From Coemansia sp. RSA 487 (Eukaryota; Kickxellomycota; Kickxellomycetes; Kickxellales; Kickxellaceae): a stretch of 64,000 nucleotides of DNA. Positions 35,671-39,856 of this stretch are shown piece after piece (position 1 is the stretch's first letter; each line of letters starts with the position of its first letter). A program made the translations under genes and the position numbers. The stretch is from the NCBI GenBank assembly GCA_027577595.1, contig JANBRJ010000078.1:1-64000 (forward strand), given 5' to 3'. Under the pieces are notes generated by a model. It was given only the letters and a program-made list of their open reading frames with translations. It did not search any database and was not told the origin of the DNA.

Positions 35671-35777
35671 AATTACAGCTGAAGTGAAATCTATATATAA
35701 ATTGGAAAGAGCTGGAAATGGAAAAGCTAAACAACAGCGCATAAGTTGGAGGGAACCTCCCATGCACAACTGACATG

Positions 35778-35884
35778 CAGTGTTTTGCAAAACTAATTAC
35801 ATCAAACAGATGTATACGCGGCGAATGGTGAAAGATTTGCGGTGGCAATAATGCATCTTGCATTTCGAGAAAAAGTCACTTACG
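35778..35884 (+). repeat. left terminal inverted repeat
   Basis: Starts CAGTGTTTTGCAAA and pairs with the reverse complement of 39603-39710, which starts CTGTGTTTTGCAAA. Shared blocks include AATGGTGAAAG, TTGCGGTGGCAATAA and GAAAAAGTC, in the same order and spacing with one single-base gap. Beyond about 35885 the match weakens. Confidence 0.85.
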
Positions 35885-36076
35885 TCAGCTGGCGTTATAC
35901 TTGCGCTTGGAAGCAAGAGGCGCAAACGGAGCTTTGTGGAGAAGGCTGTCCTGCTACACACCTATTATTTTACACTAAAACAGATTGGCTTCTTGGTCAC
36001 TGTCTGTGCTTTCAATGTGGTTAGTTAATATTGGCCCTAATAAAACCTAGCAATATGAAGAAATACTGCCACTACC

Positions 36077-36656
36077 TTGAACAAGAACAACAACCAAGCC
36101 ATGCACTCTTTGCCAGACGTAAACATATTGGAAGAAGACCGTCACTCAAATAAAGAGCCAGAGAACATGTTTGCATGCATGCGCATGTTGATGGATGCTT
36201 CATTGAGAAAGCCTCAAGCCGTTTCTGCTGCCAAAAAGAGAAAAGCCAATGGCAACGAGATCAGGATTAGTGGGCGTGTTGGCACACGAACAGAGCACTT
36301 GCTGGCCTACATTTCAAATGCAATCGATGTACTGAGTGGCAAAGAGTATGAAAAGCTACCATCTTGTGCTGGACAATGCTCCAATCCATACGCCATTAGC
36401 CATTCGAGACCTAATATAAAACAGACGATACAAGCGCCTATATCTGCCTCCATACTCACCCTTTCTATATCCCATTGAGGAGCTTTGGTTCAAGGTAAAA
36501 TCGGGGTTGCACAGAACAGCGCTTATAGCAAAAGTCAGACTCAGTGATAGAATATGCAAGGCAGCCAACAAAGTGACAACATCAGACTGCCAAGGCTACA
36601 TCAGACATTTCATGGCATTCTTCTCTCGCTGCAAAGACGGAGAAACAAATCTTTAA
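36077..36656 (+). pseudogene. decayed Tc1/mariner-like transposase, C-terminal half
   Basis: The plus strand reads through the second half of an IS630/Tc1-type transposase in two frames. The first frame covers KKRKANGNEIRISGRVGTRT and HLLAYISNAIDVL. The frame then shifts near 36345 to SYHLVLDNAPIHTP, with the second catalytic aspartate at 36372-36374. After a TAA it continues as LYLPPYSPFLYPIEELWFK, with the third catalytic residue, and ends CKDGETNL plus stop at 36654. The first catalytic region (DEAGF) is missing between the left repeat and 36077. It is inactive. The family's ending (YLPPYSP-x-x-NPIEE-x-W) makes the assignment secure. Confidence 0.85.
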
Positions 36657-36660
36657 ATCT

Positions 36661-37200
36661 CCTTTTTTGACAAACAAAGCTTGTACTCAATCCTCTGATT
36701 GCTGTGGATAGTTTGAAACCCCCTTCCTTCAGTTAAAATAGCCAACGTTTCCGATTTTCTTTTGTAACTGTGATAACGATTAGGCTTGAGGCAATCATAT
36801 TTCAATGGTGGGTTGGCAACTCGCATGTTGGAACAATCGTATTGTTGGAAAGCATATATCATATGCTTCCAAATTACCTAGTTCAATTGTTGTGGTGTTT
36901 GTACGGCTATAAAAGTCAGGCTGTGTATGAAAAATAAAGACGAGGAACTTTAGCTCCGTCTGCTCTCTTGATATTCTTGTGAAAAGTGATATATCAGTAT
37001 CACAAGTGTTCCCAAGCAAGCTAAAGAACGAAAAGAGAATGTGTGCCTGGTTAGGAAAGACAGCGTGAGGGCGCTTGTTTTCCTTTTCGCTTTTGTTTCT
37101 CCTTGGATTTCATTTGACATTTTATTTCTAGTGGTAACGCCAAATACACCTTTCAGTGCATATATTATATTATCTGCTCTTGTTTGCTCACCCATCACCA
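36661..37200 (+). promoter_or_regulatory. Fanzor upstream region with TATA-like box and hairpin
   Basis: Non-coding sequence between the transposase remnant and the Fanzor start. A near-perfect palindrome at 36845-36872 (TTGGAAAGCATAT, three-base loop, ATATGCTTCCAA) could form a hairpin. TATAAAAG at 36907-36914 would be a suitable TATA box, about 290 bases before the ATG. A T-rich tract follows around 37075-37135. Promoter function is inferred. Confidence 0.4.
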
Positions 37201-39404
37201 ATGGGCAACGAGAATACATCAGACACAGGGACACGCGTTATAAAGTGCCCCCTAGAATCCTTGGCGAATGACAGAAATGACATTACCAAGGTAAACGACT
37301 ATGTTGTAGTAGCCAACACAGCTTCTGCACACATGTATGGGCTAGCTCGGTGGATATTTGTCCATGAGCTGGCTACTCACAAGCAGTTCGATCCCTCTGT
37401 GTACCTGGAAAAGAGGTTTTTTGGTGGGGTATTCCTGCACCTCACCAAGCGGAAAGCCAGGCCGAATGTCAAGGCTGAAATCCAGGAGTACAGGAGGGTC
37501 ATACGCAAGCACCTGGATGCGTACAAGGAGGCTGCTGGCATCACAGAGTTTGATATAGTCAACCCAAACCAGACAGCACAGTTCGAGGCAGCAAGAGTTT
37601 ACACTGCGTATGTAAATAATATACAGACCAAGTTTGGTCAGTACCTTCGGCATGCAGTAAATGTTTTGCTGAAAACTCGGGAGCGCAAGAGGGACCTTGA
37701 GGATGCAATGAAGGGCAGAACAACGGATGAGATAAAGGAAGTGTATGAAGACCAGATTTGGAAGCCTGGGTTGGAGTTGAAAGAGGCGATAAAGCACCGC
37801 AATACTGTTCTTCCAGTTATCACTGTGGGCGACAAGAACATCGGGGACATGCTTGAACCTGTGTTGACAGCATACGACAACGACTACGAGTTTGAGGAGG
37901 AAGGCATTTATTACGATATCAAAGCGCATCCAAAAAAGCACTTCAAAGCATTCTGCTGCTTGGCAGTGCTTCTTGAGATGAACGACTACAAATCTTTCCA
38001 GTGTTCCCCATTGCGGAAGTCGTTTGTGCCGGTGCACATCGAGATTGACACCGTGGTATTATGTCGAAGCATAATAGGCTGGAGCTATAACGCGAAGTCC
38101 CCCATTGAAAGCTATTGGTATAGATTTCTCAACGAAAAATCGAGGGTGCTACGGATAAGAAACGGCTTCAGATTCTATGGCACAATACAGACTGACGGCG
38201 TGTCTGTGTCAGTGATCAAAAAGACCACAGCGGCAAAAGAAAAAAGCAGCAGGAAAGCGAAGAAAAGGGACACTGAGGCAAATGCTGCCATCGAGACCAG
38301 CGGAAGTGGGCTGACAGCTCCAGCTGAGAGTGCAGCTACTGGCTCATTGCCAGAGGACCAGCCCAAAAAGCCCAAGCAGCCCAAGAAGCGAGAAAAGCCA
38401 GGAGAAAAGAAGTCGGGTGGGTTCGCATATATCCACGAGCTTTCGCCAGAGCAGCTGGCCAACATGAAAAACCCAATTTTCATGGATCCGGGTCGCAAGG
38501 ACATCGTCTTCGGCATGACGGATAAGAGCACCTCTGAGGAAAAAGCACTTTTCCGATACACACGGAGCCAGAAGGCCAAAGAAACCCGGACAACCTGCTA
38601 CCGCAAGCTGAGAGAAAAGCTCAAGAAAAAGCATCCAGACAGCAACGAGATCAAGGCTGCCGAGGCTAGATTGGCTACTTTTTCGTGCACATCGATATTG
38701 CCAGATAAATATGAGCAATATGTCAGGACGCGTGCTGCTGTTTGGCCAGTGCTGAGTAGATTCTACACGAACACCATGACCACCAGCAAGAATGGGAACA
38801 GCCCTCAGCCAATTCATCGCAAGCTTCGGCAATCTGCCCACATCAAGCAGCAACAAGCCGATGAGCGGCTAGCAAAGAGGATTCGGGTGACATGCGACGA
38901 TGAAAAACCCACTGTGGTCCTAGGCAATTGGAGTGCGCCAATGGCTCACTACCATAAGCCTATACGGGGGGTCGGATTCCGGCGAATTCTGAGGAAGAAA
39001 GGGTGCCAAGTCTATCTTGTTGGCGAATTCAGAACGTCAAAGGCTTGCCCAAACTGCCTCACTGGCACTCTCAAGAAGTTCATGAAAGTACCCAACCCCC
39101 GCCCCTACCAACGGAATAAGATGAAAGAAGTCCTCTGCCACGGTCTCCTTAAGTGCACCAACGAACTATGTATGGGGCCGTGGAAGCGGATGGCGTTTTA
39201 ACTCCTCGTTCACGCATGTACAACCGAGACCTCGCAGCCGTTCTCAACTTTAGGCATATTTTCCATGACCTTCGCGATAACGGCGAGACTCCAGTGCGCT
39301 TTTGTCGCAGTCAGCCTGTAGCCGTTGCTACCACTGATGAGCAGCTGCCCAAGAAGAAAAGGAAGACGGCTGCGGCAAAGAAGCCGGCGAGGACGAACAA
39401 ATAA
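37201..39404 (+). CDS. Fanzor1 (eukaryotic TnpB-like RNA-guided nuclease), frame break near C-terminus
   Basis: The 0 frame codes for 666 residues (37201-39201). The N-terminal half has the Fanzor1 helical domain, with SFVPVHIEIDT and then TIQTDGVSVSV near residue 330. A Lys/Pro-rich linker follows. RuvC-I is MDPGRKDIVFG with D429. VVLGNWSAP is the usual strand before the last third. GEFRTSKACPNC carries E609, the likely relocated RuvC-II glutamate. The zinc-finger cysteines are C616, C619, C652 and C657. The final aspartate (MYNRDLAAVLNFRHI, codon at 39228) lies in the -1 frame, open 39153-39404, so one base appears lost near 39180. That tail ends with an SV40-like nuclear signal, PKKKRK, and more Lys. 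TnpB and Fanzor cut DNA guided by RNA encoded at the element's 3' end. Probably inactive unless the frame change is a sequencing error or is bypassed. Confidence 0.88.
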
Positions 39405-39434
39405 CAACCACCACGACATTCAGCCAAGGTTATA

Positions 39435-39483
39435 GCCGCGGCAAATCCTAGTTCTAGGATAGGACATGCTGTCCCTTTTGCAG
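39435..39483 (+). ncRNA. candidate Fanzor guide-RNA (fRNA/omega-RNA) scaffold segment
   Basis: Thirty bases after the Fanzor stop, two hairpins lie side by side. ATCCTAG/CTAGGAT (39445-39460) has six or seven pairs, and GGACA-TGC-TGTCC (39462-39474) has five. GCAAA (39441-39445) and TTTGC (39477-39481) can pair outside both and close a three-way junction. TnpB and Fanzor guide RNAs start near the 3' end of the nuclease gene and run toward the element end, so the place fits. The structure was found by eye, without folding energies, and could be chance. Confidence 0.35.
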
Positions 39484-39602
39484 GTAGGTGCTCAAACAAG
39501 AGCTGAAGAGATAAACATCTGCGGCTGCTTCTAGACAACAGTACTAATCATTTGTACTTTCTCGTGTTTTCCTGCTTTGCACTGACGCATATGCCATGCC
39601 TG

Positions 39603-39710
39603 CGCAAACGACTTTTTCTTGGATCGCAAAATGCGTTATTGCCACCGCAACCCTTTCACCATTCAACGCGTGCACATCTTATTTAGCGCAATTAGCTTTG
39701 CAAAACACAG
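39603..39710 (-). repeat. right terminal inverted repeat
   Basis: The reverse complement matches 35778-35884 in order and spacing (see the left repeat). Its outer edge, at 39710, is 146 bases before the PRP46 start codon, so the end of the transposon is part of that gene's upstream region. Confidence 0.85.
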
Positions 39711-39856
39711 TGTGCAACCCATACTACGCATTATTTGTGCTGACAACACTGCAAAAATATTTTAAAGAAAATAGTTACGCGAAATCATGAAATATTTAAA
39801 CACAATAGTCCTTCAAGTTTGTGTGTCATCTATATTCAATCATCAATTTTCGAATA

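Follow-up and report, generated by a model that had tools for sequence, protein, structure and literature searches.

A Fanzor1 transposon with a disrupted nuclease gene, and its family, in Coemansia sp. RSA 487

Our analysis of a 64,000-nucleotide stretch of DNA from the fungus Coemansia sp. RSA 487 (hereafter the window) identifies positions 35778-39710 as a real copy of a Fanzor1 transposon in which the reading frame of the nuclease is broken. We consider it likely that this element is a non-autonomous member of a family of DNA transposons that carry Fanzor1 together with a Tc1/IS630-type transposase. Fanzor is a CRISPR-like nuclease that cuts DNA under RNA guidance, and in the copies that we compared it evolves under constraint and the transposase does not. 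Fanzor1 transposons of this kind are already known; the family itself is new, and the contrast in constraint between nuclease and transposase is the interesting part of it.

Architecture of the window element

An earlier note, made from the sequence alone, had described a complete-looking element, which is right for the architecture but not for the nuclease, since a frameshift breaks its reading frame. The features of the element and its flanks are as follows.

35773-35777, plus strand: ACATG in the left flank, fitting A[AC]AT[AG]; predicted TAM
35776-35777, no strand: TG left of the element, repeated at 39711-39712 past the right end; 2-bp direct repeat and possible target duplication
35778-35877, plus strand: left terminal inverted repeat, from the repeat alignment and the ends of other copies
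36077-36655, plus strand: Tc1/IS630-type (DDE_3) transposase remnant with broken frames, matching from residue 134 of the frame in copy L021 onward
37201-39201, plus strand: Fanzor1 frame up to a stop made by the frameshift, with the RuvC-I DPG near 38485, TSxxC and a zinc finger, from open reading frame and homology
39025-39027, plus strand: glutamate codon within VGEFRTS, assigned as the RuvC glutamate from the PpFz1 alignment
39153-39404, plus strand: end of Fanzor1 in the shifted frame, with the RuvC-III YNRD (39219-39230) and a PKKKRK motif (39348-39365)
39405-39712, plus strand: Fanzor stop to right end, putative omegaRNA scaffold, judged by position and by its retention in short elements
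39610-39710, minus strand: right terminal inverted repeat, from the repeat alignment and the ends of other copies
39713-39732, plus strand: right flank and would-be guide, a role suggested by published Fanzor1 loci

The inverted repeats align at 35780-35877 and 39610-39708 with identity in 80 of 99 columns (81%), at a local score of 101 where 500 shuffles reached at most 29, and contain an ungapped core of 77 nt at 81%. In other copies the repeat starts two bases further outward (C[A/T]GT...), which sets the window element at 35778-39710, and the ends of the window element agree with the outward pattern of those copies, T[A/G]C[A/T]GT[A/G]TTTTGCAAAACTA. Repeat alignment and the ends of other copies thus bear out both of the ends that had been proposed. 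The left neighbour is a minus-strand gene that matches no Pfam family and has its in-frame ATG (~35670) ~107 bases away; to the right is a plus-strand WD40 gene with its ATG (~39857) ~146 bases away.

The Fanzor1 frame of the window encodes 681 aa and matches the Fanzor1 of Parasitella (PpFz1, 9cf0) at a phmmer E of 7.5e-89 and SpuFz1 (8gkh) at 1.4e-36; the protein of the better-preserved copy L022 reaches 1.8e-99 and 1.4e-42, respectively, and also matches the Guillardia Fanzor1 (2.7e-5). Homology extends over most of the length of characterized Fanzor1 proteins, and the expected residues (D, [TS][TS]xx[C4 zinc finger], RD and DPG) are present, with the NRD of the window in another frame. The motifs MDPGR, EFRTSKACPNC, NELC and NRD are found in the window and in most of 21 copies fetched from the genome, and most other copies read IDEFRTS where the window has VGEFRTS. 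The phmmer matches to PpFz1 and SpuFz1 and the motif residues kept bear out the Fanzor1 identity. A Pfam scan of the window Fanzor returned only Cas12f1-like_TNB at 0.011, below the cut-off, and an NCBIfam scan of the protein gave no relevant match. Precomputed annotation assigns Pfam PF26935 to many similar Coemansia proteins, and this family is absent from the Pfam scans of the window and L022 Fanzors. PKKKRK lies close to the Fanzor C-terminus in most of the 21 copies as in the window, and we take it to resemble a classical nuclear localization signal.

The frameshift is a single-base lesion at ~39177, between the zinc finger and RuvC-III, and because of it the frame stops at 39201. The same lesion (Fanzor base 1967 in L022 numbering) is carried by three of the 21 copies, namely the window copy, L024 and L036. 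Of these, L024 has a Gypsy junction (see below) that the window copy lacks, yet both carry the lesion; its presence in three copies of differing architecture may reflect common ancestry, conversion or a slippage-prone site. The window copy has lost the ability to make a normal Fanzor, and it retains its two ends together with the putative guide region.

Copies in the genome and selection on their two genes

As the earlier note had anticipated, the repeats serve to find other copies in the same genome, and the ends found in this way coincide with those of the window element. With up to 3 mismatches the terminal repeat pattern occurs at 73 + 76 places (control 0), giving at least 149 ends. The window Fanzor protein yields 74 match rows, 50 at ≥65% identity and 24 at 32-56%, these figures being rows counted by eye rather than copies. 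At least 12 contigs start or finish inside Fanzor copies (C81:1, C54:1, C151:1, C170:1, C41:3, C144:3, C92:3, C108:3, C61:3 and the ends of C140, C22 and C148), so the assembly breaks at these elements and understates their copy number. A second, more distant Fanzor1 group comprises six full-length, stop-free matches that are 38-39% identical to the window protein (C113:40304, C101:54372, C81:58882, C23:54933, C66:76139 and C54:63632). The genome also holds short "ghost" elements besides the Fanzor copies; 19 further elements (L041-L059, 0.56-3.9 kb) were fetched via paired ends, and ten of them have the same junction at Fanzor base 1904. The expectation of better-preserved relatives was likewise correct, as five of the 21 copies (L021, L022, L023, L026 and L028) are free of stops and frameshifts across the 95-100% of Fanzor that aligns; in L026 the Fanzor start differs, because the first 36 residues are unaligned (row 37-676).

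The transposase is less intact. A Tc1/mariner-type remnant had been recognized from the sequence, and DDE_3 (PF13358) confirms it in the window at 50.3 bits (36345-36527, with a stop inside the match); the match to the L021 frame begins only at residue 134, so that the first catalytic D is gone. This N-terminal deletion is widely shared, since 21 of 128 transposase match rows in the genome, counted by eye, begin at residue 134 or 135. The L021 frame itself (298 aa) matches DDE_3 at 3.5e-19 with DD34E spacing as counted by eye, and NCBIfam IS630 at 62 bits, below the cut-off of 100. A DDE_3 search gave 51 matches, and the longest open transposase frames listed are 383 aa (C28), 338 aa (C140) and 317 aa (C81:4366-5046). 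A working transposase is possible given the 317- and 383-aa frames, of which the former is stop-free over residues 17-243 and the latter is covered by match rows only at residues 1-24 and 223-281, where stops interrupt the match. Transposase relatives elsewhere measure 402-467 aa in 15 of the best 20, and Coemansia is absent from the named rows among the best 120 of 553.

In nine copies (L021, L023, L024, L025, L027, L030, L031, L032 and L033) the transposase passes into a Gypsy fragment at an identical junction, which is absent from the window copy, L026, L029 and L038. The fragment in L021 is a reverse transcriptase (RVT_1, 5.7e-32). At L021:5914-6620, and in about nine more of the fetched copies, this Ty3/Gypsy fragment lies in reverse orientation between transposase and Fanzor.

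Taking the family consensus as reference, we calculated omega over transition-weighted sites, projecting frames, ignoring indels and assuming a star-like history. For Fanzor it is 0.46 (0.40-0.53) over 21 copies, 0.39 (0.32-0.47) in the five undamaged copies, and 0.43 (0.37-0.50) in the ten copies assigned to the Gypsy lineage, which are the nine junction copies and L022, whose junction is not preserved. For codons 1-235 of the transposase it is 1.15 (0.90-1.46), a value given for 14 copies, a smaller sample than that for Fanzor, and including L022 and L032, which match little or nothing there. Median pairwise dN/dS is 0.287 for Fanzor (210 pairs) versus 0.736 for the transposase (66 pairs, in a frame that takes in ~57 codons past the transposase). 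In-frame Fanzor stops number 11 altogether and are absent from 16 of the 21 copies; for six copies chosen for having none, neutral simulation gives 2.4-3.9 per copy, with P(0) of 0.015-0.072.

These values bear on a serious possibility, to which we would give somewhat less than an even chance, that this is an ordinary cut-and-paste DNA transposon carrying Fanzor as a passenger, in which the omega contrast would stem from past selection on source copies and Fanzor would have no current role. Since the 16 copies outside the undamaged five are also at a pooled omega of 0.48, part of the constraint on Fanzor predates breakage, and the one frameshift common to three copies indicates that copies also spread in a damaged state, or that they converted one another. 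Such a passenger is harder to reconcile with the lack of constraint on the transposase in the same copies, with the omega of the undamaged five, and with the asymmetry of flanks at near-identical ends, which is difficult for a transposase alone to produce.

Flanks and the right-end region

For the flanks we used 107 ends (≤3 mismatches), of which 41 were assigned left and 54 right, and 12 fell to neither and were dropped. A[AC]AT[AG] occurs in 17 of 41 left and 3 of 54 right flanks (p=2.6e-5), and ATR in 26 of 41 and 17 of 54 (p=0.0033). By batch, the longer motif stands at 9/28 left versus 2/34 right (p=0.016) and then at 8/13 versus 1/20 (p=0.0007), the second batch being no clean hold-out because all flanks had been seen before the motif was settled on; plain ATR in that batch does not differ significantly (8/13 left versus 7/20 right, p=0.17). 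Unassigned ends carry the motif in 1/5 and 0/7 cases by batch. Position by position, left and right differ with p=0.001 at -4 and -3 and 0.04 at -5; at control positions -6 to -28, three of 23 fall below 0.05, the lowest at 0.009.

Both repeats have nearly the same consensus across ~110 nt, so a transposase should barely distinguish the ends. Given this asymmetry and the published TAMs, ATN for PpFz1 (PMC11423790) and CATA for SpuFz1 (PMC10432273), the left-flank motif is best read as a putative TAM. The end frequencies differ at base -1, which is A in 22 and G in 16 left ends (after T) and A in 15 and G in 29 right ends, and at base 5 (left 23 A, 18 G; right 15 A, 39 G), with A favored on the left and G on the right at both; a transposase might distinguish the ends in this way after all. 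In the Tc1/mariner superfamily, target preference commonly reaches into the bases around TA, and the motif was defined after inspection, with 12 of 107 ends unassigned. Even so, we think it unlikely that the motif reflects transposase target preference or an artefact of end assignment, in view of the near-identical repeats and the resemblance to two TAMs. RIP-like C-to-T mutation was rejected as the source of the A/G variation at the ends, the changes being transition-biased, with the highest rate at CpG and no excess at CpA. In a nearest-neighbour analysis of the inheritance of end variants, even bases inside the repeat were without significant concordance.

Flanking dinucleotides in 30 pairs are TA/TA in 7, otherwise identical in 3 (TG in the window, GA in L056, CA in L057) and not identical in 20, and a left TR pairs almost freely with a right YA. 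The seven TA/TA pairs and the three other perfect repeats hint at a 2-bp duplication. The window element has terminal inverted repeats and TG/TG rather than a TA target-site duplication, and we therefore call the element "Tc1/mariner-like". A longer target duplication was rejected, the flank scan of the 30 pairs giving weak signals only (z 3.2 for the 2-bp TR position, 2.6 for an overlapping 4-bp frame), and comparison of element flanks with the fetched loci found no empty sites.

The earlier note had also proposed a guide-RNA region at the right end, for which position, retention in many short elements and the flank motif speak, and folding does not. The 308-nt 3' region is matched nearly end to end by 12 of the 19 end-fetched elements and partly by seven (L041, L043, L046, L049, L054, L056 and L058). 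Six single-sequence folds of the right end gave z of +0.07 to +1.42, with no support for structure, and the sense-strand alignment of right ends gave no convincing consensus structure; one 120-nt window has z -4.1 with a helix of -0.8 kcal/mol, and control strands are stronger, down to z -14.7. The sole Rfam match is Sphinx_2 (E 0.89, below the gathering score). In the would-be guide, the 16-mer at 39714-39729 has only its own perfect match and 6 places with 2 mismatches, against 15 for a reversed-pattern control. Target duplications are predicted to form part of the Fanzor1 guide-RNA scaffold (PMC10711439), from which a guide would start after YA at the right end.

A possible role of the nuclease in retention

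The explanation that we favor is that better-preserved copies would make the Fanzor protein, which would load an RNA transcribed from the right end, with the last bases of this RNA, reading into the right flank, serving as the guide. Movement would be by transposase acting in trans on the common inverted repeats. If A[AC]AT[AG] is the TAM, cleavage of the empty donor site by the ribonucleoprotein would favor retention of the element. Tentatively, and at rather less than even confidence, we suggest that selection in the family keeps the RNA-guided nuclease rather than the transposase, such that copies with a transposase inactivated by shared lesions spread and their Fanzor stays under constraint, and that TAM-bearing sites are over-represented because insertions there are rescued when Fanzor cuts the empty site. 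It is improbable that the host has instead domesticated Fanzor copies apart from transposition, for example against other mobile DNA: the five fetched loci free of stops and frameshifts, the six distant full-length matches and closely similar proteins under several Coemansia strains would fit, but the copies still lie within transposon ends, among decayed siblings.

Fanzor1 with a mariner-like transposase, or alone, within shared terminal inverted repeats was described by Bao and Jurka 2013 (PMC3627910), and the Coemansia elements are the same in combining the two genes inside common repeats; the relevant section of that paper names no elements from Coemansia, and its Fanzor-only elements are all reported to be TA-flanked, whereas TA/TA is found here in 7 of 30 pairs. 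As in the account of Spizellomyces Spu-1 (Saito 2023, PMC10432273), there are many Fanzor copies, ghosts that keep the ends and the (here putative) RNA region at the right end, base conservation just outside the left end, and Gypsy/Ty3 in some loci. That account reports no transposase inside the Spu-1 repeats, in contrast to the decayed DDE_3 transposase here, and the Coemansia family differs further in the one Gypsy-fragment junction common to nine copies. PpFz1 of Parasitella parasitica (PDB 9cf0-9cf3, PMC11423790) is the best-scoring solved protein, and its TAM ATN fits the ATR found here. Its FRI insertion, for which cyclophilin binding is described (PMC11423790), spans ~109 chain residues that align to 11 in the window Fanzor1, so this domain is presumably absent from the latter. 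Our literature search, with most subscription papers and bioRxiv outside its scope, found no paper naming both "Fanzor" and "Coemansia".

According to PMC10432273, it is not yet known what purpose the nuclease activity of Fanzor serves in biology. With many better-preserved and broken copies alongside ghosts in one fungal genome, the retention hypothesis becomes testable by strain comparison. If true, such retention would be a eukaryotic counterpart of TnpB-driven retention.
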